In this document: piece after piece, positions 6,001 to 54,780 of the stretch
Position numbering within the stretch: position 1 is the stretch's first letter
How the letters are laid out: the number at the start of each line of letters is the position of its first letter
Assembly (NCBI GenBank): GCA_020055645.1
Contig: CM034546.1
Coordinates: 117,416,375-117,480,374 of the forward strand
DNA length: 64,000 bases
Source of the DNA: Tomocerus qinae
Lineage: Eukaryota > Arthropoda > Collembola > Entomobryomorpha > Tomoceridae
Direction of reading: 5' to 3'
Notes under the pieces: generated by a model
The model's input: the letters and a program-made list of their open reading frames with translations, nothing else
Database searches by the model: none
What the model was told of the DNA's origin: nothing
Position numbers and translations under genes: made by a program

Positions 6001-9000
6001 GCATTGTACTCATAGAAAGATTCGACTTCCATGCAATGACTGAATGTCTTCACTAAACTAACTGAACGTAAGGTATACGTGTGTTTCTTCTTATTATCCG
6101 AGTGCGAGGACGTATGTGATGTACTACAATACACAATGGTAAATAGAACTAAAGGACTGGGTGAGGTTGTGTAACTTGGGATTTCTAAGTTCTACTTTCT
6201 CGTGGTCTCTTTCAAAGGAAAGCATAGCCCAGTATCTCCTCTGACGGATTTCACAGTGACTTGACTTGCATCCCTTTCACTCTTATACCATTCTCTTTCC
6301 CCGGAATCTAATCCGTGAACCCAATTTTAGCTGAGTTTTATTGTTATGTTATGATATATTGGATTCTCTGGGTTCAACTCGTCTCCACTCACTCTCCCAC
6401 TCCCGCACAAAGCAACTCTCTATTCACTCTCCTACCTATTCTCCTATTATCTCTACTCTCTACTACTACTACTACGTTGTATCTCTCTTGTGAAATACTT
6501 ATACACCAGTTTAACAGTACGAAAATATTTTTGTAGCAGTGGGTTTGAAAATGGCGAACATCTCTTTGTTCTCTGAAGAGCGTCTATCTCTGCAGTTGTA
6601 TTCTTGGGTTATTATTGCAATATATTAGGTCGTCGGATTGCTACTTTCTACTGGGATAATGTGTGAAAGTCTGTGTAGATGAAGGAGCTAAACAGACTCT
6701 GTAGTGAGTGAGTGCTTTTGAAATGCTGCTATTTATTGTGTATATTATTTTATTTGTCTGTGTGTGAACGGGATTTAGGTCTTGTCGCTCTGAGTCAGAG
6801 TCGAACACTGGAAGATCGATTTGCCGCAGTGGTGTGTCTGGTGGCAGCGGTGGTCGGCCAGGCAGTGGCGGAATGACGAATGATACGATAATGACAGAAG
6901 GACAGGTCCAACTATGGGAAATCCCTTGGAATGACAGCCGCATTTTGAGAGAGTGCTTCTGTGAACTTCCCAGTGGTCCCTTTACTCTGATTTCTACCTC
7001 TTCCGCACTAGATCTTGTTTTGGATATCACTGGAATGCAAGCTTTTCATGATCAAAATCACTTCACTTTTGAAGGAAGGTAAGTACTTCTACAAAGTTAC
7101 CCAAACTATTCTCTAGGTTATCTTTACTAATTCATTACTTGCATGTTTTCGGACCAGGTAAAATAATCTACCTTTTGAAAAAGAAAAACTATTTATTTCA
7201 AAAAGCCGGTCATTTATAATAGTATCGTATATAATAATATTATAGTATTAAATTTTTTTAGATATATCGGTTCCATGTTGATCTAAACTAAGAGATAGTA
7301 TTGAATCAGTATACTCAACCTTTCAATTCAACTAACAAGACGTTTTATAGAATACAATAGTGCTAGGGCTTTAAGGTACTTAAGGTAAATTGAAACCGCA
7401 GTGTGAAAATGTAATGTTATAAAAATTGTGGTTTCTGCTGTACAGCAGTTTCAACGAAATTGTTACAGATTCAGATGAGGTAGTTTAATTGCACGAATAG
7501 GAACCTAGTACATAGGTTACATTGAGTAAATTAGGTAAAATTAATTCGTATAAAATGATTTTAAGAAAAATCTTATATACTAATATTTCATAAGATAGCA
7601 TCCGTGAAATGATAGATTATGATGTGTTGGATAGATGAATGTTTGTGCGTGATAATTTAATATACATTAGAAATGTAAGCCCATAAAAGTGATGAAATCA
7701 TCACAGTGCAGTTAATGTAGTGCAGAATTAATCATTTTACCAATTCATTTTGTGTATGAAATGGTGCGTGTTGTCATTTGGTGTGATGTCAGGTCAGAAA
7801 GTCTGAAGTTGATGCATTTTGTGAAAAATATGATTAGATTTTTATTAGATTTGAAGGTATGATAGTAAAAACGATTGTGTGACTCTGTGTGACTAGGAGA
7901 ATGCACATTGAGTGAATTCTATATGTGTGAGTCTGAGTTAGCTGAACTGACAGGGTGTAATGGCTGAGTTTGCCCACACTGCAATCCTCATCCCTTACCG
8001 CCTTCCTACCACCTCACAACGAATCCTAATCCACAATTCCAAGAGTAACTGAAGTCAGTCTTCTCCAGCTCTCGAAACCTCACACATCCCTTTTCCTAAA
8101 CTTCCTAGTTGAACACGAGAACCTTCAGTCTAATAGAATAAACCCAGTATTCTTGTCCTTCAATCAATGTTCCACCTCGACAATTTATTCGCTCATCCCA
8201 TGTAGATCCTAGATTAGAGCATAGTGCATGAACTAGGAAGAGGCCAGAACTCGGAGTTATCCGGAAACCCCGACGCCCGGCTTTACAAGTGCTACCGAAA
8301 CCCGCACCTGCTCTATAGCTTAACAAGGATGGAAAGACGTATCGTTTCATTTTATTTTCGAATATTTTATGAATATATTTAAAGACACAAAGAGTAACTC
8401 GCTTCCGTTATAAGTCGTAGAATTATCAAATTCGATACGCATTCGGTTTCGTCAAAAGGTCAAAATAATGAGTAAAATTTATATGATAGTTGCTTTCGTT
8501 GTAAGTCGTAAAATTCACGATATTTATACGCATTCGGTTTGAGTAAAATTCTACACAGTTGCCAAACAATCAATTGTAAAAGAATAAAAGCGACAATTAT
8601 GATCATGGAAGGAAAAGAAATTCCTTTCGAGGTTATAAAGTACGCCAAGGTAAAAATATGAGGACTAGTACGAAAACAATGTTCTTATATTTAAGCCATG
8701 AATTTCTTGTAACGATAGAGATACTAACGGCAAGCAATTGAAATGTTAAAGTGTAGTAAAATAAAGCAACAAAAGTGGAAAAGGGAATAGGGATTTGAAG
8801 TGTTGAGGGAGGCTGCAGAGACTCACCATTGGCAAGTACGATAAATGATAAAAATTTGGTACACATTTATTACAATTAAGTAATTAATCTAAATTTCAAT
8901 TTTTTAAATTTTCAAAGTAACGAAACAACTGTTCTACTTCAACTTTCTTTTAATTTCAAATTCATTACAATAGAAATTACTAAAATCAAATTCTAAATAT

Positions 9001-12000
9001 TCGAATCAATAATTCATTCAGTAAAAGATACCAATTTATTCAAAATTGTTTTATTTACATTTAACTCTAATAGTGAATTAAAGTCAATTAAGTTAATGAA
9101 CAATGTTGTAAAACATTCGAAAATTCTTGTTTTAATGAAATTTTCATCTAAAGTACTATTTAAAAATAAATTGTACATAATGTATATCATTGTAGACAGT
9201 GACAGTGCGAACAAAGTAAGCCCGTCATAGAATTTCTCTTAGTAAGCAAAAGCCTATACGGCAGGAGGGTAAGAGAAATTAGAAAGATAAAAAGGAAAAT
9301 TCGGGTAGCTGTCCAGTCTAAGAAGTATACAACCATTAGTACTGCGTTTAAAAGTTGAGCGAGATAGCGCAATTTAAACGGCAGGAGGGTTGATACAATG
9401 TAAAAATTGTATATAATCAAGAAAGAAAAGGTATCGTTGAGGCGATACAGCTATAGTTTGCGAGGATGTTACTTGCGATTGAGCCGTAGAAGATACTACG
9501 GTCCAGAGAAACGTATTATACGCAAGTAAATAGCATGATATAGCACTGTAGTAGAAACTATAGTCAATAATGCACATGCAAATTATAGAAGATGGTTACC
9601 AATTGAAATTAGTATAGTTGCGATTATAACTAAAAGGTAACAAAAGATTATGAAGCTACCAGTAAGGCAGCCTTCAAGAGCTTAAACTCTTAGAGTATAG
9701 CATATAGAGAAATAGTTACGAGGATAATTCTGTAGTCGCGAATACATTGAATTTAGTAACTGGAGAAAAGCATGCAGAAAAGTAAGGACATAGTATAAGT
9801 ATCATTTAGAGTATTACTAGTAATAGGTATAACAATATCCGACTCGAAGGACCATTTAATATTGAAAAAAAGTCATGCAAATTAAATGAACTATTGTAGT
9901 TCCAGGACTTGATCACTCCAGGTACGAAGATAGAATACATTCAGAATAGTTACCAATATAAAAATTTATACATGACTAATGAAGTAAAACTCAAAATAAT
10001 ATTTAATACTAATATAAAAGCATAGCTATAGAAACACAGAAAAGACAAAAATTGAAATAAACGAATGTTAAAACTGGCAACAAAGCACAGTTAGGTCAAG
10101 TAAAAAGCAAAGATAGATAAAATAAAAATAGGCTTAGTCAGTCCGAGTACAGCAACCATCGAGAAATCATCTCTCTCTAGCGTAAAGGATCATTTTCTTC
10201 ATAGTGAACATCCAAGTTTTTTTTTCTCTGAACATCGAAACTGGTTACTAAGGTACGTAAAGAAAATTTCATTTATAGTGTAAATCATCAATGTTAGGAT
10301 ATTATTACTGAAAATAGCGAAATAGAAACAACAAGCATAAAATGATTACACTCCAAAAAGTTGAGTTAGTCCAGATATTTTCTTTTGAAATTAACAGCTA
10401 CAAAAATTAGATATTTTCAAAATTTAGTACATTCTTTAACAAAAATATAATATTATATATTAGATGAGTATCAAGTTACAAGTAGGATGCCCGCCAGTTA
10501 TCCATGAGATAGCGGATACGGCATGCGACCATGCATGGCATCCAACGCACCCAGCAGCGACAAAGTCATACGAGTGGTGGACTACCAAACTACTTCGATT
10601 CTTTTCGTCCCATGAGGTTTACTACATAGCCAGAGATGGCAGATCAATTAAACTGCGGTATGTCAACGAAGCAGAGCGTGACGAATTAAGAGGAGATCTT
10701 CATCGTTTGTATAAGGATATAGAGAACATCTAGTTGAAATAAACTAACATTTGGAACCACTATGTAAAGCGCAAATGGCATATGTCATTAATATCATAGC
10801 ATATCAACATCAAATAGTAGTATAGATTCATTAAGTAAGGTAGATAACCAGCATATAATAATGTTCATATATTGGAGAAAAAGCAAAAGTAGTACTCATT
10901 GAATAATTAAATAGAAAAATTCAGGACTGCAAAAAGGAATAGCTTGAAATGAAAATAATAAACATTATAAGGTTAACAGGAATATAGTAGGATCCTATAA
11001 CTTAAGTTAAACTTAACATTAAGCTGCATTATACCAAATTGTTCTATTACAAGCCTAGATAATGAAAGTAGTATGTTTCATCATTCAAGGGTCGCGAGTA
11101 GATACTTACGATCAATAATGATATTAATAGTCCATAGAGAGCGTATGAAGTCAGTACGGGATTTGTATATGTATGGAAGATGCCATACGTGTATGCAATA
11201 CCTTCGACCATAACGTAGATGAAATGTGGAGACCATCACTTACATGTAATAGAATGTGGAGACCATCAGTTACATGTAATAGAAATGTGGAGACCATCAC
11301 TTACATGTAATAGAAATGTGGAGACCATCTGTTACATAGAAAGAATTAGGGACACATTCAGTAACCACCACCCATTAAGACCATACCCGACATGCAACAA
11401 AAATTAGAACATATAGAATAACAATGGTACAATAGAGAATAACAGAAACAAACCCGAATGACATCAATGTAATGGACAAAACATAAATTGGAGAATTCCA
11501 TCCACCACATGCAGTTACAGTTGTCACATTCGGTTGGAGCTGTAAAGAAGTTTCTGTAACAAGACAATAATATTAAAACAACCACATAACAAGTAAAATG
11601 AAACAATGATTACACAATAATTAATTCAATAAACAAGTTTTATTTCAGGCTTCAAGACATCTATTGTGCACACCTTTGAGATGACGCTTTAAAGCATCCT
11701 TCCGCGAATAACATTTGTCACAAATAGGACAGGTAAACGTTATGCCAGTTGCAGCGTTCAAATCCTTTAATTTACACTGACTGCGTGTCTTCTTGTTACA
11801 AATGTGTCGACCTGTAAAGACATAAAGTAAATCAAAGAGAGATTAGGAAAATATTAAATGAGAGAGCGAGGGAACTACAATAAAAATCAATCAAAATTGA
11901 ACTCACCACAGCCGTCACAGCGATGACATTCCAATTCACATTTAGACTTTAATAGTCTAGCTCCAAGCTGGATGGTAGGGATCAACTTGACGGAATTAGT

Positions 12001-15000
12001 TCCAACATCTCCAACAGTAGCCATTACTTCGGCCGTCTTCACGAGACTCGATTCCTGGGGAGAAAGTTCAGACTCCTCCGTGCAACTACCAATAGCAATG
12101 CTACGAGATCCATCAACTCTGCTGGAAGAATAACGAGCAGGTCGAGCTCCCCAAAAAGCTTTGCCGGAATAGCGGGTATTACTGTGGCTATCCCCTTGTC
12201 GATTAGGGAACCCGGAAAAATATTCCTTCACAAACTCAGGGGGGGAAGCCAATTTCGGTCCTTTCGTGACGCGAATTTTTAAAAGATCTACAAATAATAA
12301 ATACCAATTTAAATAACAACATAATACCAATAAAGGATTAATTAAGTATTTGCTTTATTCACGTACCAGTATGCTGACGTAAATCTAGACGAGTCAATTT
12401 AACCTTCAATGTTTTTGAAGTTCCTAGTTTCTGCAGATAAAGGAATTCTTGACACCGAGCTACAACCAAAAAGAAGAAATCTTGAAGGAAGGATGTCAAT
12501 ATTAAAATAGGGTTTCAATGATGATGAAATCATATTTTAATAAACAATTACCATAAGACTCCAAGTATGAAGAGGAGACCGTGCCTCCATCAACATTGTC
12601 ATATAGGACAACCTGGGAGTAAGTCGCACCACAGTTGACGCAATAGCGGCCAGAGCGAGGGCGAATTGGCCGGCTGACACCACCTTCAATTCTCGGAGGC
12701 CCAAAGAGAAGAAAGGGAAGCGACGGAGCACATAGGAATAATTCCTTCCGAGTAAACTTTTCCATGACGGCGAAACAGGCGGAATGCATCAAGCACCGAC
12801 ACCCGTCCGGATGCACAACAAAAGATCCAACAGCGGAGCCAGGACGTTGGCACTCGACCACATGCTGAGGCCGTCGGCCACACACAAGTACGGGCGGCGG
12901 GTCCCGAACAGGTGCCAATTCCGAAATATCGACGGAACGGGACTTTTCCACTCGAAAATGACGAATTTCTGGCGGGTCGTCCACAACTTCAGAGGCAACA
13001 TCCTTCGCAGTAATGTGGGACATGTCTTTGGCCACGTAAAAACGACCGCGGACAGCTTTCAGAGTCATTTCACTCTACAAAAACCAAACCACGGTTTATG
13101 CATTTCAGCAAAGAAAACAAATATCGACTAAGGTAATTATAAAATCTTAATTAAAATGATAGGAAAAATTAAATGACTTACCAGATCAGACATCGGGATG
13201 ACGAATTCGATTCCACGGACACGGGTACACTTCGATATTCAAAAAAAAAAAAAATTCGGAGAGAAACAGAGTTTACCAACAATTCAACAAAGATACAAAC
13301 TTGGGATTTGAATTTCCCACCAACAGTCCAAGGATAGCAGATGTAGGAAAGCAGAGTTAAGACAGACTTAACATCGTCTACAAATACTGAGACTTCAACA
13401 ATTCTAGCTTATATACAATGTAAACATAGACTATAAAATCTCAAATATAAAATATGGGACAAACATTATAGATTCATAACAATGATTATGTAATAATGAA
13501 ATAGATAAAATGCAATACAAAAATATGGCAAAATAATTAATATCATTTATTCTAAAAGTATTATATAACAAACATTTGAATACCAATTTATAATATTAAA
13601 AATTATTCTATAAACTATGATATATTAAATAAGGCGAAATATAAATTATATGTAATAATTAAATAATATAACTATATCATTATCACAACAATTAAACTTT
13701 TCCAATATCATTATTATAATTTCTGTATTAGGTTATCATTAGTAAAGGAATTTTGGGACAGTGTAAAAGTAAGAGGGAATCTAATTCAAAAATTGGAATG
13801 TATAATATATTCAATAATAATTGTAACAACTTAATCATTATGAATCAATGTGAAATAATATTATAATTCCTAATCAAACCTTCCACACCCTTATTACCAC
13901 GGCAGGAGGATGTAATGGCTGAGTTTGCCCACACTGCAATCCTCATCCCTTACCGCCTTCCTACCACCTCACAACGAATCCTAATCCACAATTCCAAGAG
14001 CAACTGAAGTCAGTCTTCTCCAGCTCTCGAAACCTCACACATCCCTTTTCCTAAACTTCCTAGTTGAACACGAGAACCTTCAGTCTAATAGAATAAACCC
14101 AGTATTCTTGTCCTTCAATCAATGTTCCACCTCGACAATTTATTCGCTCATCCCATGTAGATCCTAGATTAGAGCATAGTGCATGAACTAGGAAGAGGCC
14201 AGAACTCGGAGTTATCCGGAAACCCCGACGCCCGGCTTTACAAGGGCTCGAGAGCAATTCCTCTTTTGCATGAGTAAGTTGGGCTTTGACAGAAAGGTGC
14301 AGACAAGAAAAGTTATTATGGAGACTTTGACTGATGTGATGGAATTTGACTTGCCTTTTCTTCCGACTAACAAGACTACAGTCAAAAGCCGACTCTGAAA
14401 GCCTGTCAGCACGAATGAAGCAAATAATCTTGGATTTATTTTTACTGCCTCGTAATATGTATGATGTAGCTGCACTGACTCCTATCGCACTCCCTCTTTT
14501 AATATCACTACTTCTACTAAACGCAATAAGATAAGATCTCCTTTGACGTGTGCGGTGTGCCTGAGCCAAACAGAAACAAAGGTAGCAACTTTTCATGGGT
14601 TTCATTTAATTATTTTTCTGGTTCCTACTACATACACTCTCTCGTATGTATCTGTGTAGATATATGTATGCATACGTGCATACTTTACTTTCTTGCTGAG
14701 TTGCCCAAAGTTTCTTGTGGGATTTCTAGGTATTTGATGTTGAGAGTTCATAGGAGTGTTGAATCGGACAGAAGAAGAAAAAGGTAAACTAAATATACAG
14801 TTGCCAAGTTTTATTCTCCGTCCTGATAAATATATAGCTTCTGTATTTATGTACCCTAAAGTTAAATGTACTGTTTCAAGGCGATTGTTTGCACTGTATA
14901 AGTGAGAGCGAGGATTTCATAGATTTCAATTATGCACTTTCGTGTTCAACTCCTGTGGCAGATCTATATATTTATATACATACTATAACTCTGTATATAG

Positions 15001-30388: not shown

Positions 30389-31091
30389 ATGACAAATAGC
30401 AAGAAAATCTTGAGAGAAGGAAGATGTTTAGGGATACTACTAATACTATTAATCACAACGGGCTGTGAGGAAATCTCATCTGAGACATCAGTTTCAATTC
30501 AAGACCTTATTGATGACACAACTGTGAACATTGCCCAAGTGGTAAATGAAACTGTAGAACCAAATTCAAACTCAAATGACACCGAAGGGTAAGTTATCAT
30601 TCCCCAAATATACTTGTACAATTATAAGATAAATTCACGACTCGAAATCCACAGCTAGTGTTAGAAGTTGAGTTTATACGCTTGCAATTCCCATTTCGTT
30701 CGCATTATAAAGTTGTCATGTCATATAGAAAGATTGATCACTTATACTCCTGCGTTACTTACCTACGTATAGATTGGTTCCTGAAATTGGGAAAACTGAC
30801 TCTGATGATACTTTTCTACGATACACTGCATATGTCATAGGATGGATTTTTCCAGTAATCTTGGTTTTCGTTGCGGCGGCGATATTATTCTGTTTCTTGA
30901 CAGCTGCTGCTTCAATGGTCTATTGGATTTATAAAGGAAGTCGCCGCCTAGTCCGGAAATGCTTTTGTAGTAAAGAGGTTCATCTCTCACACTCTGTTCA
31001 TGACCTCAAATGTGATATTAAAGTAACTAAATATAATGATATTGTAAGATTAGTAAATAGCCGGGATGAGATCGTTTATGCCCCAAACTAA
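30389..31091 (+). CDS. Small single-pass membrane protein, 172 aa, C-terminus now encoded by a Gypsy LTR
   Basis: Exons are 30389-30588 and 30773-31091, with a 184-nt phase-2 GT-AG intron. Residues 12-26 are a signal-like hydrophobic stretch (CLGILLILLITTGC). A Thr/Asn/Glu-rich ectodomain with sequons (NET, NDT) follows, then a membrane span at about residues 88-117 (WIFPVILVFVAAAILFCFL) and a basic/Cys juxtamembrane tail (YKGSRRLVRKCFC). The reading frame enters the left end of the Gypsy LTR at 31043, so the last 15 residues (158-172) and the TAA stop come from the transposon. On the far side of the insertion the same frame would have stopped after one more codon (GAA then TGA after 40293). 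The product would differ mainly in tail length, but the 3' UTR is now 9.2 kb away. Function unknown. Confidence 0.65.
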
Positions 31092-31679
31092 ATGCCACCA
31101 GTAGATGCACCTGAGTCTCCGTGATTCTCCGATGAAGATATCAGATTTCTATCTACTAATCACACATCATACACGATATCAGTTTAAGTTCAATATACAC
31201 ATTTAATATAGCCCACACGTCAATGAATCACATCATATTGAACCGGCAAGATAGGTATAGGTACATAAATGTTAGCCCCCCCAATCAAAATATATAATAA
31301 TAATAACATAGATCAAATCATGAATTAATTATGCATTTTACTTACGCTACCCAAAACCAAAATAACGTCGACAGAAGGTCAAGTCCAAAGGAGGCGAGAG
31401 AGTGGCTATTGCGTCGTCATTGGCAGTCGTTGTCAGTCAATTCCACTTCCGGAGCACAGGGCAGGAGAACACTACAAGTGAACGGCAAGACTTCTCCGAA
31501 CGTAATAGCGGCGTTAGCGAAGCTCACGTCGTATTCAAGGAAAAATGAAGGAGCCGGACAGAGAAGACGGAATGGACGGACTGACGCAGACGCAACAGCT
31601 ATACTCTCAACCTCCGTACATTTAATCTCTACACGCACAGCCTACTACTACTAATACAAATACTCCCTATATACTGTCA
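31043..31679 (-). repeat. 3' LTR (element orientation) of the Gypsy element
   Basis: This is a 637-bp copy of 39653-40289 with no difference that I can find. Its first bases in plus orientation are translated as the tail of the interrupted host gene. Confidence 0.95.
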
Positions 31680-31712
31680 TCCCCATAAATTTCCTAAAAC
31701 GCCCACGTTTTC

Positions 31713-32381
31713 TTAATTACGACGATATGGGCAATCGTAACGATGATTTCGGGATATCCCAGGATGATTTTCGAATCCACACCAACGACACTTGACTGGT
31801 GGAGGTTCGACATCCAACTCAGCATTGCATCGGGAAGCTGAGTGACCAAAGCATTTGCACCGAAAACATTGTAGTGTGCCATCGTTGCGTCTGAACTTAT
31901 TAGTAAGTCGTCGTGGGTCACTTCTTGGCGCAGGTGGATGAACTGTTGGAGTCGGAGCCTTGGTTGGTAAATCAACTTGAGGGCGACGGGCTACGTACGA
32001 AATAGGACTCCGTTTACGCTTCATCTCAGTGGTATCTGTAACAGCGTCGTTCTCCTCATGATGAACGACTTGATTGGGTTCTGCGGCGTTAACAATTACG
32101 TCATCGACAGCTTGCGGAGTATGAGCGGCGTTAGAGGCGTCGTCATGTTCCTCCGGAGTGTCGTTGAGTAAAGCGTCGTCAATTGCGTCGGAACCAGTGC
32201 AATCCATAATTTCGTCATCATCCGAGTCAGCAAGTAGCATATCCTCATCGACAATAGGTTGCGCGGCATAATCAAGAGCCTCGTCCAGGATATGTTCTGG
32301 ATTTTCCCCTTGTGAAAGCAACGTCATCAATTCGCTTTCACTCATCGTGACACCGCGACTCGTATTGCAGCTGTATAACAC
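31713..32381 (-). CDS. Gypsy ORF3: acidic protein with C-terminal CCHC knuckles, in the env position
   Basis: The frame encodes 222 residues from the first Met. The N-terminal half is strongly acidic (runs such as DSDDDE). A Pro/Thr-rich middle follows, and the C-terminus has Cys/His groups CFRCKCFGHSASRC and CRWCGFENH...HRYDC, two zinc-knuckle-like units. No signal peptide, furin site or membrane span is present, so it is not an envelope protein. A strong splice acceptor on the minus strand (pyrimidine tract then GTTGTAG, ending at 32391) lies nine bases before the Met. This suggests expression from a spliced subgenomic RNA, as env is in errantiviruses. A nucleic-acid-binding role is inferred from the knuckles. 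Confidence 0.75.
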   Translation of the reverse strand: MLYSCNTSRGVTMSESELMTLLSQGENPEHILDEALDYAAQPIVDEDMLLADSDDDEIMDCTGSDAIDDALLNDTPEEHDDASNAAHTPQAVDDVIVNAAEPNQVVHHEENDAVTDTTEMKRKRSPISYVARRPQVDLPTKAPTPTVHPPAPRSDPRRLTNKFRRNDGTLQCFRCKCFGHSASRCNAELDVEPPPVKCRWCGFENHPGISRNHRYDCPYRRN

Positions 32382-32389
32382 AATATCGT

Positions 32390-32410
32390 CCTACAACAGA
32401 AAAAATTGAA
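32390..32410 (-). other. Predicted splice acceptor for Gypsy ORF3
   Basis: On the minus strand a T-rich tract is followed by TTCTGTTGTAG|GACGAT, with the exon beginning at 32390. It fits a consensus 3' splice site and lies just before ORF3. Confidence 0.5.
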
Positions 32411-32646
32411 CGACAATAATTAGAACAATATATTTACAAATGCAAAATATTTTTAATAATAAATTGTAACCAGGAACCATTTAACGAGGTGCACATTTCA
32501 GTGATGGCCCGCTGATTTGAAATGAAATCCTAACCATACTGAACTACTATTACCACAACCAAAAAAGAATTATACGAAGTAAATAGGTACTATTACATCA
32601 AAATTATATTCTTGTACCTTCAAAACTTATAGGGAAAAATATTAAT

Positions 32647-34602
32647 TTAAATATTATGAACTACTGAATTAAATGACTGTATAAGGGCCATCACCATTTC
32701 CTGCTTGCTCTGGGCTGCGTCTAATATACAATGTGCACCTCTACTCGTAGAAGCTGCACTTTTAGTTTTACCACCACTAGAACCTCTTGTGGACTTTCCA
32801 CGTGTGGTACTTGATTTGGCTGTAGGGGCCTTAGATCCTCGTTTCGACATGTAGTCGTAAACGTTATTGCCAAAGCGATCCGGCTGGCCTTTTGTCCTCT
32901 TACTAGCACGCGAGAAGGTGGCGTCGGAGGTAGTCGAGGTGCCTGCCTCCTCCGGCTGATTCTGACTCACACTTTCCTCCGTTTCCTCTGGGATAAATGA
33001 ATCCGGAGCGTCGGAGTCTTCGTGAACAGTTTCGTCTACATCTGGGTTACCGTCGTCATCGTTCTCACCCAACGTCATCGGTATAGCTGGCACATTGTGA
33101 GGAGTGGATCCTCTCCGAGCTGGTGCCGTTAGCAGACGTGAGTGGTTCAAAAAGTCGTCGTCATTGGGCGGCGTCTGAAAACTCGTATTAGAACTAGAGA
33201 ATATAGTTGTATTATCAGAAATACCAGTTTTAACCGGAGCGTTAATTTCTACCGTGTCGCAAGAGACAATAAAAGACGGATCCGATATTGTCCAATCTTG
33301 GTCGACAACGGAGCTAGGGACGTCATGAGCCTCGTACTCTAGAAATTCTTCTACATCGGGACTGTATTCGTCATAGTAAGGCTCCAAGTGCCTTATATTT
33401 TCATTGCGTCTAAAGCCTTTCTTTGCGTCACGTAAATCTTCAATTATGTAATAAATGGGTCCAACCTGCTGAATAACTTTAAACGGGCCTTTCCAATGAA
33501 CCAAAAATTTAGTTGTTTTACCGACTAATCTAGCGAAACTCGCTAGTAGTACTTTGTCACCTGGTTTATAGTTTACCACGGGATGATGAGCATCCCACTT
33601 TACCTTACGTAAATTCTGAAGTAAAATGGTTTTATCTCTAGCTTTTACTCTGGCATCCTTTAATCGCATATTAGCTTCTTCAGGCGCGTGTAAATAATGA
33701 ATTAAAATAGGGTACTTAATGTCACAAGGTAAAGTTGGTTCTCTACCATAAAGTAAGTAGTATGGGGTGTAACCTGTTTCAGAATGCGTCGTAATATTTA
33801 TTGACCATTGTACCCGATACAATGTGTGATCCCAATTATTGTGATTATCATTAACGCGCTTTTTAACGATGCTTTTAAGCGTACCATTTACTCTTTCACA
33901 TACAGCATTTGTAGTGTGATTATAAGGCGTCGATTTCGTCAAGGTAATGTGGTATTCGTTACAAAAGTCAGTGAACTCTTGCGACGTAAAATGAGTTCCA
34001 CAGTCAACTAAAATTTCTTTAGGACATGCAAAGTTAAATATTAGACCACTTTTGATAGCAGCTATGGCACATCCAGATGTAATATTTTTTACTGCTCGTA
34101 AAATAACAAATCTAGTCAAATGATCGATAATTACAATAATGTAATTATTTCTACTAGGAAAGCTTGTCTTAAAAGGACCTATGAAGTCAATACCTACTCT
34201 GTCCCATGGTTCTATTGGCGGCGGTATTGGTAGCAAAGGACCTGGCCTTGCTTTATGTCGTCTATTATGCATTTGGCATACTTGACAACCTAGAATATAC
34301 TTACGTGTGTCTCGGTACATACCCGGCCAGAAATATCTGGATTTCAAAAGATGATAAACTTTATGCAAGCCAAGGTGGCCAGCAGTGGAAATATGAATAT
34401 TATCCAGAATTTCTTTCTTCATGCCTCTAGGTATCACTGTAAGCCAAAGTTTAGAATCCTCGTCATTACTAGCTTTATATAATATGCCATCTTCTATCTT
34501 ATACATTACATATTTAGGATCAAGAAAATTAGTAGCATTTAACTCAAATGCTTCTATCGCGTCAAAAATGTCGACCAGCTTGGGGTCATTGCGCTGTAAA
34601 AC
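32647..34602 (-). CDS. pol: Gypsy integrase region of Pol (separate frame)
   Basis: The frame is open from 34602, with the first Met at 34506. It shows the integrase zinc-binding region (AGHLGLHKVYHLL ... CQVCQMHN), the catalytic core with GIDFIGPF, DCGTHFTS and NAVCERVNG carrying the D,D,E residues, and a C-terminal domain with KFLVHWKGPFKVI. A long Ser/Thr-rich acidic extension ending near 32650 follows. The upstream part continues the linker after RNase H and overlaps the protease-RT-RNase H frame by about 49 nt (34602-34554), so it would be made by a -1 shift or is split by a one-base deletion. All catalytic motifs look intact. Integrase would insert the cDNA into host chromatin. Confidence 0.88.
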   Translation of the reverse strand, partial: VLQRNDPKLVDIFDAIEAFELNATNFLDPKYVMYKIEDGILYKASNDEDSKLWLTVIPRGMKKEILDNIHISTAGHLGLHKVYHLLKSRYFWPGMYRDTRKYILGCQVCQMHNRRHKARPGPLLPIPPPIEPWDRVGIDFIGPFKTSFPSRNNYIIVIIDHLTRFVILRAVKNITSGCAIAAIKSGLIFNFACPKEILVDCGTHFTSQEFTDFCNEYHITLTKSTPYNHTTNAVCERVNGTLKSIVKKRVNDNHNNWDHTLYRVQWSINITTHSETGYTPYYLLYGREPTLPCDIKYPILIHYLHAPEEANMRLKDARVKARDKTILLQNLRKVKWDAHHPVVNYKPGDKVLLASFARLVGKTTKFLVHWKGPFKVIQQVGPIYYIIEDLRDAKKGFRRNENIRHLEPYYDEYSPDVEEFLEYEAHDVPSSVVDQDWTISDPSFIVSCDTVEINAPVKTGISDNTTIFSSSNTSFQTPPNDDDFLNHSRLLTAPARRGSTPHNVPAIPMTLGENDDDGNPDVDETVHEDSDAPDSFIPEETEESVSQNQPEEAGTSTTSDATFSRASKRTKGQPDRFGNNVYDYMSKRGSKAPTAKSSTTRGKSTRGSSGGKTKSAASTSRGAHCILDAAQSKQEMVMALIQSFNSVVHNI

Positions 34603-37556
34603 TCAAATTCTTTATCAGTCTCTAAAGAAAATAATCTATCGTCATATTGTAAATGTTCGGCGTCACTTAGTGCTGGCGGCGGATTCACGGGATTTCGTGA
34701 CAAAGCATCGACGTTACTATGCTTCCTACCGGACTTATAGACAATGTTAAATTTAAATGGAGATAATTGTGAAGCCCAACGTGCTAATTTACCCTGTGGG
34801 TTCTTCATTTCAAGTAGCTGGCACAAAGAGCAGTGATCGGTTACGACCGTAAATATTTTACCATGAACGTAAGGACGGAATGTTTCTACAGCGTACAGAA
34901 TGCCAAGACATTCTAGTTCGGTTGCGCTATAATTACGTTCGTAAGGCAAAAGTGCTCGAGATGAATACGCAACTACCTTCCACTCTCCCTCGTCTTCAGC
35001 TCTTTGCTCTAAAGTGCATCCAAGCCCAATATGACTAGCATCTGTGTAAATTCGAGTTTCAGCGTCGTCTCTCGGAAATGCCATGACAGGAGCGGAAGTT
35101 AAAGCTTCCTTTAATTTTTCAAACGCAGTTTGTTGTTCGTCACCCCACTCGAATTTAACGTTTTTACCCGTTAATTTCGTTAGAGGTCTAGCAATATGCG
35201 TAAAATTACGTATAAATCTGCGGTAATAACCTGCTAAATATACGAACTGTCTTACTTCCTTCACAGTTGTTGGAGCTTTGTACTCCCGGACACATTTAAC
35301 TGTGTCTGGATTTAGCGATATTCCTTCAGATGACACAATGTGACCTAGGTACAAAATCTTATCATCAGCTACAGTGCATTTTTTAGGTTTTAATCTTAAA
35401 CCTGCTTTGTCCAGTGCCTGAAACACGGACTCGACATGTCCGAGATGAGAATCGAATTGTTTACTATGCACTATAATATCATCCAAGTACCCTAGAGCCA
35501 CTGTCCATTTAAGTCCTCCTAATACAGCATCAATCAATCGCTGAAAAGTTTGCGCAGCATTGCACAAACCAAAGCTCATGTAATTAAATTGGTACAAACC
35601 GTCAGGCGTTACAAAAGCTGTCTTTTCTTTATCCTGCTGCCTCATAGGTACCTGGTGATAAGCATTTTCACAATCAAAGATCGAAAAATACTTACAACCA
35701 GCAAAACGATCGAGTGCGTCATCCATACGTGGAAGAGGATAGTTGTCTTTACGTGTTACCTTATTAATAGCACGATAATCAATACAGAATCTTTTAGTAT
35801 TATCCTTCTTATCTATAAGCACGACTGGTGAAGACCATGGTGAATCACTATGGCTAATAATTCCTTTCCGTAACATGTCCTCTGTCTGCCTGTTAATTTC
35901 TCTCCTTTCCTCGTATGATACTCGATATGGCTTTTGTTTTATAGGTGCGGCGTCACCTGTTTCTATGCGATGTTCGACGTAATCACATCTACCAACTTCC
36001 TTTCCATCACCTCCGAATAAAGATGCGTATTTTATAAGTAAATTCATTACTTCTGTTTTCATCGCGTCGTCAAGTTTACTACCTATAGAGATTTTAGAAA
36101 TAAATTCATTCAATTGAGGACTTAACGAATTCATGAAATTGACATCGTTGAGTAAAGACTCAACGGGTTCGTAAGAAGATTTCTTGCTTCGTAATTCTTC
36201 ATCGACTTCATCTAGATTACATAAAATCTGTTCGTTATTAAAACTCTCATAGGTACCTAGAACTGTATTTAAGTATAGCCGTAATGGTCGGCTGGATAAA
36301 TTCAACAAAATTGTATGACCAATTCCTTCTGTAATAGAAAGTAATGTATGTCCAACTCCAACCTTCTTGGAGTATTCTAATTGTGACCTGGGCTTAACTA
36401 AAATGTCACCATTACATTTACTATCTGTCTTTACAGGAACTCTGAGAGCGTAACCTGGCTTTATGCATACTGACTTAGCTAATCGAATTTTATTCAGAGC
36501 GTAATTTACCATTTCTGATGGTTCAGTAGAAGGACTACTGCTTTCATATGAGTTAGGAACTGAAAAATCCAACTCTGCATATTCGGTAGGAGCAAAAGAA
36601 GAGCCATGTTCGGTTACATTAGTGTCATTGTTCGATAGCGGCGTAGGTGCAAATATTAATGAGGCTTCTCTATCAGCATAAGAGCCTGGTGCGTCGTTAT
36701 TCAAATCGATGCCGTAAACTAGCATCTCATTAGAACATTCGACGAGTACGTCGTAAACCTGCAAAAAATCTAATCCAAGAACAATGTCATTAGTCAAATT
36801 ACTGATTACATTGAACTCGTAAAGTATGGGTCTATTATTATCAACGGCGACAATCATCTCAACCTTAGCTTTCACTAAATTAACATTATCACTATGGATT
36901 GATAATTTTAAGCTAAAAGGTTCAATATTAGTAACTTTATGTACATAATATTTAAATCTACTATCTTTTCTCAGAAAATTGAAAAGACGTTCATTGACCG
37001 CAGTCATGGAAGCGCCGGTATCAGCAATAGCCTTAAGTTGCTTATTACCGATTGCTACTTTGCAAACCAATGGATGGTTGCATTTGAGAATGCTCCTGTA
37101 ACGAGCAGGAAATAAGCCAAGCTTAGTTTCCGTGAAGATTGTGGGTGTCCGCCCCACTGGACTATCTACATGAACTAACTTACAACAATTATCAACTTTA
37201 GGTTCTATTTTAGATCTAGTGACGATGTCCTTTACTGCAGTAAGTACAACGTCTTTAGCGGCATTAGCATCAAGAGGCGACTGTTCACCTTTAGGATCAA
37301 TTTTACTAACTACGTAATTAACATTCTTGCTTCTGACTACAGAAGTAGCAGAGCCTTGAATCTTTAATGAGCTATTATCTACTTTACAACTAGGGGCATT
37401 CAACTTCCCCATAAATTTAGATTTAAATCTATTAGTATTACGTACGACTAATCCCCCATACTTATTATATCTAAACCTACGATGTATTTTATTCCCAGCA
37501 AAAAGTTTTAACAAATTATTTAAATTCCAAACACCGATTACGTCGTTATTATTCAT
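34554..37556 (-). CDS. pol: Gypsy Pol: protease, reverse transcriptase, RNase H
   Basis: The frame has 1000 codons. The ATG overlaps the gag stop as ATGA (37556-37553), a layout that allows coupled re-initiation. The aspartic protease motif DTGAS is at about 37010-37024 with the flap-side GLDFL further on. Reverse transcriptase motifs include SPWSSPVVLI, CIDYRAIN and the catalytic YLDD (35489-35478). RNase H follows with YTDASHIGLG and the TDHCSL block. The N-terminal approximately 150 residues before protease are basic and of unknown role. The frame stops at TAG 34556-34554, just after RNase H; integrase continues in the -1 frame. With identical LTRs this copy is probably a recent product of an active source. 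Confidence 0.92.
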   Translation of the reverse strand: MNNNDVIGVWNLNNLLKLFAGNKIHRRFRYNKYGGLVVRNTNRFKSKFMGKLNAPSCKVDNSSLKIQGSATSVVRSKNVNYVVSKIDPKGEQSPLDANAAKDVVLTAVKDIVTRSKIEPKVDNCCKLVHVDSPVGRTPTIFTETKLGLFPARYRSILKCNHPLVCKVAIGNKQLKAIADTGASMTAVNERLFNFLRKDSRFKYYVHKVTNIEPFSLKLSIHSDNVNLVKAKVEMIVAVDNNRPILYEFNVISNLTNDIVLGLDFLQVYDVLVECSNEMLVYGIDLNNDAPGSYADREASLIFAPTPLSNNDTNVTEHGSSFAPTEYAELDFSVPNSYESSSPSTEPSEMVNYALNKIRLAKSVCIKPGYALRVPVKTDSKCNGDILVKPRSQLEYSKKVGVGHTLLSITEGIGHTILLNLSSRPLRLYLNTVLGTYESFNNEQILCNLDEVDEELRSKKSSYEPVESLLNDVNFMNSLSPQLNEFISKISIGSKLDDAMKTEVMNLLIKYASLFGGDGKEVGRCDYVEHRIETGDAAPIKQKPYRVSYEERREINRQTEDMLRKGIISHSDSPWSSPVVLIDKKDNTKRFCIDYRAINKVTRKDNYPLPRMDDALDRFAGCKYFSIFDCENAYHQVPMRQQDKEKTAFVTPDGLYQFNYMSFGLCNAAQTFQRLIDAVLGGLKWTVALGYLDDIIVHSKQFDSHLGHVESVFQALDKAGLRLKPKKCTVADDKILYLGHIVSSEGISLNPDTVKCVREYKAPTTVKEVRQFVYLAGYYRRFIRNFTHIARPLTKLTGKNVKFEWGDEQQTAFEKLKEALTSAPVMAFPRDDAETRIYTDASHIGLGCTLEQRAEDEGEWKVVAYSSRALLPYERNYSATELECLGILYAVETFRPYVHGKIFTVVTDHCSLCQLLEMKNPQGKLARWASQLSPFKFNIVYKSGRKHSNVDALSRNPVNPPPALSDAEHLQYDDRLFSLETDKEFEFYSAMTPSWSTFLTR

Positions 37557-38593
37557 GCATTTTGGGAGTTTCCCTGATTCCTATTAGCGTCATTTGCATT
37601 TGCACTATTGTTAGGACCAACGACATTGTTAGCCGCGCGTTCGTAATAAGGAGGGTTGCCTGCTAAGCGATCTCTGCAATGTAATTTTACATGCCCAGCC
37701 TTATTACAGTGGTCACAGATAGGACGGCCATCGGCAGTACGATGATAGCGACCAAAAAGAACATCATTACCATTATTTGTGACATTAGGTACATTATTAT
37801 TACGAGCCACGTAATTACGAGCGACGTAATTTCTATTACCTCCTGTTCCACGCACATTATTATAATTACGATTATTATAACGTGGAGCAGGACCAGCAGC
37901 AGCACCCATCATAGTTGGTGTAGCATAGGTTGACGGGGATGGAGAGTTCATGGCCTTAGTGCTTTGCTTATTGTCAACCTTCTGTGCCACACAAGTCTCA
38001 GCTATCTTACGTAAAATAGATAGAAATTCCAGACACGTCCTGATAGTTTGAGGTGCCAATGTTAATTGTAGCTTATTAGGTAGACCCTGCAATAGCTGCC
38101 TGACCTTTTCCTCCTCTGACATATTTGCATTAAGTAAAGCTAGAATTTTCATTTTACTAGTTACGTAAGTCTGAGCGTCGTCACCTATTTCAAATTTGAG
38201 TGCTTTATTTTGGGCCCTATAATTTGCCTTCTGGTTGGTGTGGTCAAAAAATTGTACAAAATTAGCTCTTGTATCTTGCCAAATATCGTCAAAGTTAGGG
38301 TCAGCTGCCTGCATTTGTTGGTTAACTACTGGCCACACGGATGACCAATATGCTTTTGCGTCGTCATCTAACACTCTATCGAGGTTAGTCAGTAGCCATT
38401 GATTGTTCAAATGCATATAATTTAAGTCAGCTTCATGCCTAACCAGAAATTCTTGCACACTAGACTTGCCGTCATAGTGGCGTAATTGTGCAATGGCTTC
38501 ATTCTGCACGAGTCGCCTTTCGTTGATGTTCTGGGCTCGTAATGCAATAAGCTCAGCTTGGAGGTCATTTACTTGAGCCTCTAAATCCTCCAT
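37553..38593 (-). CDS. gag: Gypsy Gag with N-terminal coiled coil and CCHC knuckle
   Basis: 346 residues. Residues 1-35 (MEDLEAQVNDLQAELIALRA) are heptad-like and probably form a coiled coil. The middle has the gypsy Gag (retrotransposon capsid) pattern, with YWSSVWPVV, FVQFFDHTN and the LLQGLPNKL segment. An Asn/Arg/Gly-rich region precedes a single CCHC zinc knuckle, CDHCNKAGHVKLHC (about 37717-37676), used in RNA binding. The stop codon overlaps the pol ATG by one base pair step (ATGA). It forms the particle in which reverse transcription takes place. Confidence 0.88.
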   Translation of the reverse strand: MEDLEAQVNDLQAELIALRAQNINERRLVQNEAIAQLRHYDGKSSVQEFLVRHEADLNYMHLNNQWLLTNLDRVLDDDAKAYWSSVWPVVNQQMQAADPNFDDIWQDTRANFVQFFDHTNQKANYRAQNKALKFEIGDDAQTYVTSKMKILALLNANMSEEEKVRQLLQGLPNKLQLTLAPQTIRTCLEFLSILRKIAETCVAQKVDNKQSTKAMNSPSPSTYATPTMMGAAAGPAPRYNNRNYNNVRGTGGNRNYVARNYVARNNNVPNVTNNGNDVLFGRYHRTADGRPICDHCNKAGHVKLHCRDRLAGNPPYYERAANNVVGPNNSANANDANRNQGNSQNA

Positions 38594-38723
38594 TTTGAAA
38601 TATTTTTACAAAATGTCGAGTGGCAGTACAAAATAATAATTACCCTGGCCAAAGGTTGACGTAAGACGAGTCTTACCGGAATGTCAACAGGCTAATGTGT
38701 AAGGACACAACAGGGTAGTCGGG

Positions 38724-39242
38724 TCAAAAGAAAATTTTCCTCACTATTATGTCAACGTAAATTATGAATGACTCGCAAGTTCGTTCTACATGAGCGACAA
38801 AAGTTGACAGTGAGTCAGAGTTAGGGTCAATCGAAGATGCCACGTAAGTCGGAGATAAATGAGCCAGAACAATAGTTACGTCGAAATTATGCATGAACTG
38901 TTCGTTAGAAAAATTAAGACGCAAAAACATATGGATCTACAATGTAGTAGTAGCAACAAAAATATTAGGGCGCTTGAAAGACAAATTACTTCTGGAAAAT
39001 AGATCGTCAAAAATACTGCACATTAGTTCGACCACAGACTCAACTTTTTTAGCATCGTTAATAGGCCCAATTGAAATAGCTAAATTCTCTTCCTGTCCTG
39101 TAATTTCTAATTGAGTCACTAACAAACCTAATAAGGCTACACGAATATGTCCAATAATTTTATCTCGCGTTAGTTCAATTGCGGCGTAATCCTCAACGTT
39201 AATATGAATTACTACTTTTACTATACGTGGTAGCATTTTCAA
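38724..39242 (-). CDS. Possible upstream frame (ORF0) in the Gypsy leader, interrupted by one TAG
   Basis: From ATG 39242 the frame runs 101 codons to a TAG (38937-38939) and then continues open in the same frame for about 70 more codons to 38724, with a new Met three codons after the TAG. The predicted sequence (VVIHINVEDYAAIELTRD near the start) has no motif I recognise. It lies between the 5' LTR and gag, where Gypsy elements usually have only a leader. It may be two small proteins, a readthrough frame or chance. Confidence is low. Confidence 0.3.
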
Positions 39243-39652
39243 AACAAAATTACTAATAGCGGCGTAAAGAATTTTGAACTCATGAACAAAATAAAAAATA
39301 AAAATTTTTGGGATAGCGTCGTAACAAAGTAATGGAATTTCGAGACGTGATTGGAATTAATCATCTCTATTTTTCAAAAAAAAAAAAATTAATATCAGAA
39401 TAATCAGATCATACTATATTACTTCGAAACAAAATTAGCTAGGGACTGTAGTTCAAAGGTTGAGCAACTCGCTTGACAACAGAAAGGCACTAGAGAAAGG
39501 ACGGCGGCGTAATTTTGGGCATAGGTTCGGGGTCATTTCACTACACCAAAAAATGATGAGATTAACTGCTTACCTTAATTCCCTGTTCAGTAGTCATTCC
39601 CGGATATTTTTCGTGTCGTTTCCAGAACTAGAGGGAACTACCCCTTGCATCT

Positions 39653-40289
39653 TGTAAGATTAGTAAATAGCCGGGATGAGATCGTTTATGCCCCAAACTA
39701 AATGCCACCAGTAGATGCACCTGAGTCTCCGTGATTCTCCGATGAAGATATCAGATTTCTATCTACTAATCACACATCATACACGATATCAGTTTAAGTT
39801 CAATATACACATTTAATATAGCCCACACGTCAATGAATCACATCATATTGAACCGGCAAGATAGGTATAGGTACATAAATGTTAGCCCCCCCAATCAAAA
39901 TATATAATAATAATAACATAGATCAAATCATGAATTAATTATGCATTTTACTTACGCTACCCAAAACCAAAATAACGTCGACAGAAGGTCAAGTCCAAAG
40001 GAGGCGAGAGAGTGGCTATTGCGTCGTCATTGGCAGTCGTTGTCAGTCAATTCCACTTCCGGAGCACAGGGCAGGAGAACACTACAAGTGAACGGCAAGA
40101 CTTCTCCGAACGTAATAGCGGCGTTAGCGAAGCTCACGTCGTATTCAAGGAAAAATGAAGGAGCCGGACAGAGAAGACGGAATGGACGGACTGACGCAGA
40201 CGCAACAGCTATACTCTCAACCTCCGTACATTTAATCTCTACACGCACAGCCTACTACTACTAATACAAATACTCCCTATATACTGTCA
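39653..40289 (-). repeat. 5' LTR (element orientation) of the Gypsy element
   Basis: This is a 637-bp copy of 31043-31679, seen as identical, and followed on the plus strand by the ATAT target duplication (40290-40293). The 107-codon plus-strand frame inside each LTR is antisense and duplicated with it; I do not treat it as a gene. Confidence 0.95.
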
Positions 40290-48627: not shown

Positions 48628-49356
48628 TGGAAAGAAGTGTATTGTATTTTGTGGATTCAATAAGCTTTTGTGTGTGATTGAACTCTTACGACCTTTTTAA
48701 CTTTAAATTCATTCCCTATTTTTACTAATTAGTATTTGACTAAGAATGTAAATCCAATTCATGCTAAGATTAAGTTTAACTTATATATTTGACCGTAAGT
48801 TGACGCATTATCTTTGTTCTAGTATATGACTTTTGCTTTATGTTATCTATTCTCTTGTGTAATTACCTTAAATTATGCACACATATGTAAATCTCCTAGA
48901 TTTCATCATCTTTTTGTCCGGTCAGTGCTCTAACTAATTATAATTGTTCTAGAACTTACCTTTCACTTCCTGAGAAATGTATTCTATTGGCTAGCTACTT
49001 TTGACCTCTGTTAACTAAAAACCTATAAATATAAGTAACTGACTTGTATACTCCAGTGCCTGTGCAACCGCTATGTAAGACGAAACTCTGCTCGACTAGC
49101 AATAGAAACCGAACTTAGAGCACAACCTTTCTGTTTGACTAAGTCATTTATTTCTATTCATAAAGTCATTTTAGTCTTTGTCTTTTTTCCAAGCACAGCA
49201 CTCCTCGACGTAGAGACCGCATAATCTCACATTTTACCAATTACCTGACTTGCTTTAATTTATTTTATTTAGAAATAATTGCACATCCACAACTAATTTA
49301 TCCATACACACACATCCCAACACCTTCTTTAATCCACGCTTCAGCCCTCTTCTCCA
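48628..49356 (+). repeat. 5' LTR of the Bel-Pao element
   Basis: The LTR spans TGGAAAGAAGTG to CTTCTCCA. It matches 54781-55509 apart from about ten differences near its start. Confidence 0.93.
49024..49058 (+). promoter_or_regulatory. Core promoter inside the Bel-Pao 5' LTR
   Basis: TATAAATA (49024-49031) is followed after a normal distance by an initiator-like CTCCAGTGCC; the predicted start A is 49055. The same pair is present in the 3' LTR (TATAAATA at 55177). Confidence 0.5.
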
Positions 49357-49374
49357 TGGTCCTTCGAGCCGGAT
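49357..49374 (+). promoter_or_regulatory. Primer-binding site of the Bel-Pao element
   Basis: TGGTCCTTCGAGCCGGAT starts immediately after the LTR's terminal CA. TGG is the complement of a tRNA CCA end. I do not assign the tRNA species. Confidence 0.7.
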
Positions 49375-49590
49375 GCAAGACTATAATCAGATTTGCAACC
49401 TAAAACTACCGGGAAACTGATCTGGATTTAGGAAGAAAAACCAATTGCCCTACAGTAAGCTGCGGACTGCAAATCCCGAAGAGTCAACACTGTGGTTCTC
49501 TTTGCCTGGAATTCTTCCCTGCCTGAAACTAGCGGAATTTGGTAACGAAAATCTTTAACGAAAAAATATTTTACTATCAAATCATTTATT

Positions 49591-50346
49591 ATGGATAAAC
49601 TAGAACGCAAAAGATCTGCACTCAAGGGAAGAGTAACGACCATCAAGACTGCCTTTGATGTCCATGCTACTTCTCCTTTGACGGAAATCAAGACAAAAAA
49701 TCTGTTGGTAAGAGTAGAAAAATGCATTGAAGAAAACAATCAAATTTATGAAAAAATTATTGACCTTTGTGCAAGCTCTGCCGACCTACCACCTCACGAA
49801 GTCCTTTACGAAGCTGAAGATTTACGACTTCAACCAATGAAGGATTCTCTGATGGAGATTTTGAGGTCATTTTCCTCAACCGCAACCACTTCGACGTCCA
49901 CACCGCAAGACATTCGCCTACCTCGGTTGGAATTGCCATCCTTTAGCGGCCATCGTTTAGACTGGCTTTCCTTCCACGACTTGTTTCGGGCAGCCGTTCA
50001 CAACAACAATCAGCTGAGCGGGGCTCAAAAACTCCAATATCTACGTACGTCCGTCAAAGGAGAAGCTGCTACTCTGATTCAAGCATTTACTCTCACAGAC
50101 GACAACTACGATGAAGCTTGGAAGACTCTAGAAGCCCGATACCAGGACAAGAGAGAACTCGTCAATCAGCATTTTGACCGACTACTTTCTATTCCCAACC
50201 TGCAAATGGAAAATCCAACGGTACTCCAGAAAATGTTCGACCGCGCCAAGGAATGCTTCCGTGCAGTGGAGATTTTGACTGTCCCCAAGGAAAAGGCATA
50301 CGAGCTCATCATCATCCATCTAATGGCAAAAAAAGTTGGATCCTGA
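49591..50346 (+). CDS. gag: Bel-Pao Gag (N-terminal part of the gag-pol protein)
   Basis: 251 codons from ATG 49591 to TGA 50344-50346. The N-terminus has charged helical sequence; the conserved part begins LPRLELPSFSGHRLDWLSF and continues through KLQYLRTSVKGEA, the signature of the DUF1759-type Gag of Bel-Pao elements. The frame ends abruptly just after a run of seven A (50328-50334), while the expected continuation is intact in the +1 frame. In most Bel-Pao elements Gag and Pol are one frame, so the break is probably a one-base insertion in the homopolymer. Confidence 0.88.
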   Translation: MDKLERKRSALKGRVTTIKTAFDVHATSPLTEIKTKNLLVRVEKCIEENNQIYEKIIDLCASSADLPPHEVLYEAEDLRLQPMKDSLMEILRSFSSTATTSTSTPQDIRLPRLELPSFSGHRLDWLSFHDLFRAAVHNNNQLSGAQKLQYLRTSVKGEAATLIQAFTLTDDNYDEAWKTLEARYQDKRELVNQHFDRLLSIPNLQMENPTVLQKMFDRAKECFRAVEILTVPKEKAYELIIIHLMAKKVGS

Positions 50347-54700: not shown

Positions 54701-54767
54701 CTATGATTTATATTTCATGATGTATTATATTCATTTTCTATTTAATCATTTTGAAATCAGTGATTCC

Positions 54768-54780
54768 AAGGCGGGGAATA
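54768..54780 (+). promoter_or_regulatory. Polypurine tract of the Bel-Pao element
   Basis: AAGGCGGGGAATA lies directly before the 3' LTR. It would prime plus-strand DNA synthesis. Confidence 0.6.

Follow-up and report, generated by a model that had tools for sequence, protein, structure and literature searches.

An LTR retroelement family of Tomocerus qinae without gag or pol, with a sense open reading frame and an antisense intron-containing gene

Large retrotransposon derivatives (LARDs), a class of long terminal repeat (LTR) elements, are defined by their non-coding interiors. The element described here, which we call W, occupies positions 7956-14242 of a 64,000-nucleotide stretch of Tomocerus qinae contig CM034546.1 (the whole stretch is referred to as the window), and LARDs are the closest known system to it. 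As far as the consulted part of the honey bee set (PMC4028053) goes, the two have in common LTRs, a primer-binding site (PBS), a polypurine tract (PPT) and a multi-kilobase interior without gag or pol. Unlike a LARD, W has two protein genes under purifying selection, and one of these is antisense and predicted to be spliced.

Other described elements share individual traits with W. The plant Ty3/Gypsy element Retand has tandem repeats and, after its coding region but ahead of the 3′ LTR, an antisense open reading frame (ORF) whose product, TRP28, is proposed to bind DNA (PMC11963269). W likewise has tandem repeats and an antisense ORF ahead of its 3′ LTR, but it lacks pol, whereas Retand is described with gag-pol, some members being non-autonomous (PMC11963269). 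The words ‘intron’ and ‘zinc finger’ do not occur in the text of PMC11963269, and a Pfam search with the W antisense gene returned C2H2-type models only, with no match to TRP28. MDG1-group Gypsy elements of Drosophila carry gag, pol and accessory small ORFs (sORFs) on the sense strand, of which sORF2 is transmembrane (PMC11952523, a preprint). W also has a small accessory sense ORF; in contrast to sORF2, its 89-residue product does not look transmembrane (it lacks any strongly hydrophobic segment, the highest Kyte-Doolittle mean over 19 residues being 0.65), gag and pol are absent, and the excerpt of the preprint mentions no antisense gene for MDG1. The non-autonomous animal elements Helenus and TRIM have 4-bp target-site duplications, a PPT and a Gypsy-like PBS; Helenus LTRs hold tRNA-like sequence, and TRIMs are shorter than 1 kb and encode no mobilisation proteins (PMC10886601). 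W too has 4-bp duplications, a PBS and a PPT, but its interior measures 5.6 kb and contains two genes. Within the excerpts of open-licence PubMed Central literature that we consulted, no animal LTR element with an antisense intron-containing gene was found.

A mobile LTR family without gag or pol

W is a complete LTR element with the ends TGTAA...TTACA. Its direct TG..CA LTRs are identical at 331 of 332 positions, and it has the target-site duplication, PBS and PPT (GGCAGGAGGA) that characterize an LTR retrotransposon. A six-frame Pfam search (E<=0.1) found no gag, reverse transcriptase (RT) or integrase domain in the interior (8288-13910); its only matches were to C2H2-type models and one to DUF3876 (E 0.0067, below that model’s cut-off). 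As a positive control, the same library recovered RT and RNase H from a Gypsy element in the window and Pao domains from a Pao element. Rfam gave no match anywhere in the window. These results bear out the anatomy of the original prediction, made from the sequence of the window, which had reported near-identical TG...CA LTRs, AGGG duplications, a PPT and the absence of gag and pol; it had also expected a recently moved family, which was found as follows.

Searching the 334-Mb source genome with the LTR gave 12 places (12 of 12 candidates scored): four LTR pairs (W and copies A, B and C), three unpaired LTRs and a fragment. The ~7 kb on each side of every unpaired LTR holds no partner, and duplications lie directly at the LTR ends, which identifies the three as solo LTRs. 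A perfect 4-bp duplication is present at all seven LTR-bounded insertions (AGGG, ATCT, ATCT, ATAT, ATCT, CGGT and GTTT), and these duplications show that insertion occurs by an integrase-type reaction. The LTRs of a pair differ at 1 of 332 positions in W and at 0 of 363 in each of A, B and C. The family has therefore been mobile recently: several loci hold a copy with these LTRs and the antisense gene, each flanked by a target duplication of its own. W, A and B are colinear across the entire interior, W differing from A or B at 10-11% of ungapped columns and A from B at 7%. Because they align throughout without gag or pol, the gag/pol-less state is older than their split, and the selection measured below thus acted on the gag/pol-less form.

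The copies differ in several further respects. Copy D (C3:28.85M; L053/L054) is degraded and partly inverted: two partial copies stand head-to-head, and their 840-bp inverted repeat, 99% identical, holds two sense ORFs that differ by one residue. Copy C (L015/L016) has an 8.4-kb insert near its 5′ end, which we considered and set aside as a source of gag and pol; its long ORFs resemble a DNA-transposon protein by eye, no family search having been made. Divergence among W, A and B is mosaic, with A and B 94-100% alike across nearly all of the 5′ part, B and W 97-99% alike at the 3′ end, and other interior stretches differing by up to 31%. The synonymous divergence (dS) of the antisense gene, 0.26-0.64, exceeds the divergence of its introns, 0.11-0.19. 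Recombination during reverse transcription would fit this mosaic pattern. The insertions are young (LTR pairs 99.7-100% identical) yet the interiors of W, A and B are 7-11% apart, so either several diverged source lineages coexist or the sources lie outside the assembly. The window LTRs lack ~30 bp carried by six other aligned LTR types (those of A, B, C and the three solo LTRs); in the window 5′ LTR this absence sits at 8134-8135, just ahead of AATAAA.

Two conserved genes and a second LTR family

The minus strand of W contains a gene of five exons and 391 codons plus stop, each of its introns being GT-AG and its single C2H2 finger spanning residues 362-385 of the 391-residue protein (Pfam E 3.5e-6). 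This is the five-exon frame with canonical splice sites and a C2H2 finger that had been predicted, and its orientation, opposite to the PBS-to-PPT polarity of the element, agrees with the accompanying proposal that antisense placement keeps the introns. In W, A, B and D, the copies that hold most of the gene, all splice sites are conserved. The ratio of nonsynonymous to synonymous change (omega) is 0.17-0.22 in six of six pairs of these copies, with 95% bootstrap upper bounds of at most 0.32 (NG86, Nei-Gojobori script, over the whole frame; codons with gaps or stops removed). On this comparison the antisense gene is under purifying selection. Runs as long as its longest open one (190 codons) arise in 8 of 1000 Markov interiors and in 10 of 1000 obtained by local shuffling, which makes this length only mildly unusual; a chance origin of the open frames is excluded by their conservation in other copies, not by their length. 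Upstream of the gene lie the motifs TATATAA and TCAGT, which we take to be a TATA box and an initiator and which are spaced by 27 bases from the first T to the initiator A. TCAGT is unchanged in A and B; TATATAA is the same in A and has one changed base in B.

The original prediction did not contain the sense ORF (10464-10733), which is a second conserved gene. It begins right after a conserved AG acceptor, and a conserved donor lies at 10253. Its omega is 0.13-0.27 in 11 of 15 pairs, those with dS above 0.2, and by this measure it too is under purifying selection. The predicted structure of the 89-residue product has a mean pLDDT of 47 and was not used.

A protein search of the source genome gave 22 matches (91 of 91 candidates scored), all of them in W-family elements or in a second LTR family, E, and no host copy of the antisense gene outside elements was found in this search. 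Two loci on C3, L055 and L056, are 30-34% identical to the window protein, and 30-36% identical in the large exon. L055 is a 7.1-kb LTR element with 403-bp LTRs (4 mismatches), an AGAT duplication, a PBS and a PPT; its LTRs can be aligned with those of W over 16 nt only, around TTCAGTCTAAT. Its gene again lies antisense to its own PBS-PPT polarity, is open over 365 codons and has three introns, which agree in phase with introns 2-4 of the window gene and, as judged from the alignment, occupy matching positions. The last exon again has a C2H2-type motif, recognized by eye. The two whole proteins give a local score of 262, against 62 for the best of 500 shuffles; the last exon alone scores 65 (maximum 49 in 1000 shuffles), and the score of exon 3 was reached by none of 1000 shuffles. 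An antisense homologue in a second family, together with the lack of a host copy, makes the gene look long-standing in the lineage rather than a recent cargo.

L055 also has a sense ORF, of 100 codons, at a comparable place. Between L055 and L056, omega is 0.32 (0.19-0.51) for the antisense gene and 0.21 (0.08-0.49) for the sense ORF. The sense ORFs of W (89 residues) and E (100 residues) look alike by eye; BLASTP gave no hit and the profile probability was 0.8%, and we do not claim that they are homologous. Family E is commoner than W, with at least 12 LTR pairs (40 of 66 candidates scored), and 11 of the 12 listed pairs span 4.9-5.3 kb, compared with 7.1 kb for the gene-bearing L055. One 5-kb copy, of which 1.8 kb was read, is colinear with the non-coding part of L055.

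Eight residues, six Cys and two His, are invariant across six exon-2 sequences from both families. Compared with the PDB, a profile of exon 2 gave weak matches, the best to JARID1A (E 0.014), where one ligand position is unmatched; nine of the 11 matches are proteins that we take to carry PHD fingers, and Pfam PHD_5 matched one of the six exon-2 members (E 0.043). Exon 2 thus possibly encodes a PHD-like zinc domain. Pfam found no further domain on the element proteins beyond those named. Among 5.8 billion proteins, a collection whose insect content is uncontrolled, no relative of the antisense protein was found, the best match being an unrelated C2H2 protein (E 2.7). Viral contigs (searched with the protein and also with the LTR pattern) and plasmids gave no match, which says little because their insect content is likewise uncontrolled. 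The protein, viral and plasmid collections may leave out records of the window’s own genome.

Primer site, neighboring elements and feature map

The primer site of copy A is TGGTGCCGAAACCCG, and at A, C1:73.8M and C1:89.1M it reads TGGTGCCGAAACCC. We take TGGTGCCGAAACCC/TGGTGCCGAAACCCG to be the complement of the 3′ end of tRNA-Phe; relative to this 15-nt complement, A is exact, B and C have one mismatch and W has two. A pattern built on the LTR-PBS junction matched 29 places in the genome and none in the reversed control. Assigned by coordinates, these are four W-family 5′ ends, 12 sites abutting a listed E LTR, seven second sites inside E elements, five sites 3.5-6.3 kb from a listed E-type LTR and one new site. 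The new match, C1:23.25M, was read in part and belongs to an E subfamily with an LTR 81% identical to that of E. In seven of the 29 matches a second PBS-like stretch lies 76-77 bp downstream of the primer site, as at C1:40778555 and 40778632.

The window contains two other LTR elements. A Gypsy-type element on the minus strand (31039-40289) has 641-bp LTRs that are 99.8% identical and extended gag-like and pol reading frames that include RT and RNase H; by BLAST, its LTRs have no similarity to those of W. A Pao/BEL element on the plus strand (48628-55509) has LTRs of ~730 bp, 98.6% identical, and a pol-type ORF of 1458 codons, and the sequence after its 5′ LTR fits what is presumably a tRNA-Tyr primer site. 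The features of W are collected in Table 1.

Table 1. Features of element W (window coordinates) and location of the LTR pairs of its family
Feature	Position	Strand	Basis or remark
Target-site duplication AGGG	left copy 7952-7955, right copy 14243-14246	none	sequence comparison
5′ LTR, 332 bp, TGTAATGG...CTTTACA	7956-8287	+	alignment of 11 LTRs
TTCAGTCTAAT then AATAAA, inside 5′ LTR	8124-8142	+	
PBS TGCTACCGAAACCCG, 2 nt past 5′ LTR	8290-8304	+	
First internal GGCAGGAGG motif, PPT-like	9260-9268	+	kept in A, B
Second internal GGCAGGAGG motif, PPT-like	9380-9388	+	kept in A, B
Probable intron of sense transcript, AAG/GTACGT ... TTAG/ATG	10253-10463	+	predicted from sequence; both sites kept in A, B
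Sense ORF, 89 codons, no known domain	10464-10733	+	open in 6 of 6 genomic copies found
Tandem repeats, unit ~31 bp	11221-11337	+	unit number higher in A, B
AATAAA poly(A) signal, immediately 3′ of antisense stop codon	11644-11639	-	
Antisense exon 5, C2H2 finger and stop	11811-11645	-	splice model and Pfam
Antisense exon 4	12287-11907	-	splice model
Antisense exon 3	12459-12367	-	splice model
Antisense exon 2, Cys/His-rich domain, weak PHD-finger likeness	13074-12552	-	splice model and profile comparison
Antisense exon 1, start codon	13193-13182	-	splice model; splice sites kept in copies
Putative core promoter of antisense gene	TATATAA 13415-13409, TCAGT initiator 13390-13386	-	
PPT GGCAGGAGGA, adjoining 3′ LTR	13901-13910	+	kept in A, B
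3′ LTR, 332 bp	13911-14242	+	single base unlike 5′ LTR
LTR pairs of the family	W, window; A, C1:56.66M; B, C1:2.29M; C, C1:47.3M		

Interpretation and alternatives

Taken together, these elements are probably a non-autonomous, LARD-like LTR retroelement family whose two genes are part of the element itself. Along its plus strand follow LTR, PBS, a long non-coding stretch, the 89-codon ORF, tandem repeats, PPT and LTR, with the 89-codon product probably made from a spliced sense mRNA. The antisense gene, in the 3′ half, has a poly(A) signal and, close to the 3′ LTR, what is likely a TATA/initiator-like promoter of its own. We infer trans-mobilization by an autonomous partner: genomic RNA would be transcribed from the LTR and packaged by the proteins of another element, and after tRNA-Phe-like priming it would be copied and integrated by that element’s enzymes. 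The 4-bp duplications suggest that this helper is most likely Ty3/Gypsy-like. The antisense gene would be transcribed from its own promoter and then spliced, and because splicing of the minus-strand transcript takes nothing out of the genomic RNA, which is of plus-strand sense, the introns would survive each cycle. We predict that its product, Cys/His-rich (possibly PHD-like) with a C2H2 finger, is most likely nuclear, acts on element transcription or chromatin, and can be supplied in trans. The data establish the anatomy and mobility of the family, the conservation of its two genes and the existence of a second family, whereas trans-mobilization, the identity of the primer, in vivo splicing and the role of the protein are inferred.

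A broader interpretation has, in our judgment, slightly less than an even chance. The elements may form a distinct gag/pol-free LTR lineage in which two genes have been kept over long divergence and in two or more LTR families, one for a micro-protein from a spliced sense transcript, the other antisense, with its introns retained, for a protein of chromatin type. Such a lineage would live as a genetic satellite on other retroelements while encoding regulators of its own, like satellite viruses, with the antisense placement keeping the introns through reverse transcription.

Several observations weigh against the first of these interpretations. Five W-family copies retain gene sequence, and W alone among them is open throughout. 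A and B have in common a frameshift of one base within a run of C in exon 4, which may be an assembly error in that run, and A is also missing 66 nt in this exon; D is interrupted by a stop in exon 3 and by a 2-nt gap in exon 5; and C has lost exons 1-3 and the PPT along with most of exon 4, the loss of the PPT suggesting that its gene deletion may postdate insertion. Since each of A and B has an identical LTR pair, elements in which the gene is broken have probably moved. A gene broken or largely deleted in four of five copies speaks against a requirement for it in cis; its product is likely supplied in trans, and the upkeep of the gene by selection despite such supply is puzzling. In family E, exon 4 of L056 and that of L055 differ by 56 nt, a length not divisible by three, leaving one of the two open as read; that L056 too is out of frame, with respect to L055, slightly weakens the case. 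Outside the W family, exon 2 was found at four places, two of them fragments and the others L055 and L056 (14 of 14 candidates scored), which suggests that the gene has gone from most E copies. By length the sense ORF is ordinary, being reached in 142 of 1000 Markov and 136 of 1000 shuffled sequences for the region; omega is 0.54 for A-B and 0.50 for A-C, with intervals that reach above 1, so constraint in these pairs is not significant; and the B-C and D1-D2 pairs have zero synonymous changes. The PHD resemblance of exon 2 is weak (E 0.014), and tRNA-Phe is a putative primer. Finally, genome searches by LTR and by LTR-PBS junction recognized no autonomous partner, no RT-based search having been made.

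Other explanations account for parts of these data. The elements could be deletion derivatives of autonomous Gypsy-like elements in which the antisense gene lay beyond pol, ahead of the 3′ LTR, with selection acting mostly in those autonomous ancestors. The gene’s position near the 3′ LTR and the nearby tandem repeats resemble Retand, as far as the excerpt of its description goes, and shortening is common in family E. However, W, A and B are colinear without gag and pol while the dS of the gene is 0.26-0.58, so this layout predates their split, and no pol-length ORF occurs in the part of L055 that was read (ORFs of at least 90 codons; 499 interior bases not covered, and no family search). We therefore consider such an origin unlikely. 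It has also been suggested, in the original prediction, that W carries a mobilized cargo gene, and passive carriage of a host gene that a LARD had picked up on a single occasion would be in keeping with a compact, intron-bearing gene that has promoter-like motifs and a poly(A) signal. This claim is not supported, given that a second LTR family has an antisense homologue whose introns match and that 22 of 22 protein matches are confined to W-family elements or family E, and we regard a single capture as very improbable. The accompanying description of W as LARD-like fits an anatomy without gag and pol but not the non-coding interior by which LARDs are defined, given two genes under purifying selection.

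The protein might instead serve the host, for example as a repressor of elements, so that selection would act on the host. Its zinc-binding domains would suit such a role, as would the tolerated broken copies, which suggest a product that works in trans; however, constraint is seen among young copies at scattered loci and not at one fixed locus, which makes a host function improbable. Last, the inner flanks AGTG and AGGA nearly match the outer AGGG, as could be expected if an assembly artefact or two solo LTRs flanked an unrelated gene. This error, which the original prediction had named as a possible refutation, is refuted by the other copies, since A and B show identical LTR-interior junctions, and we give it practically no chance.

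Stripped-down non-autonomous retroelements are expected to lose coding capacity, and a lineage without gag and pol that keeps two genes is unusual. With such a lineage one can ask directly which functions a retroelement requires in addition to a helper, and the antisense arrangement would be a simple route for intron-bearing genes to ride on reverse-transcribing elements.

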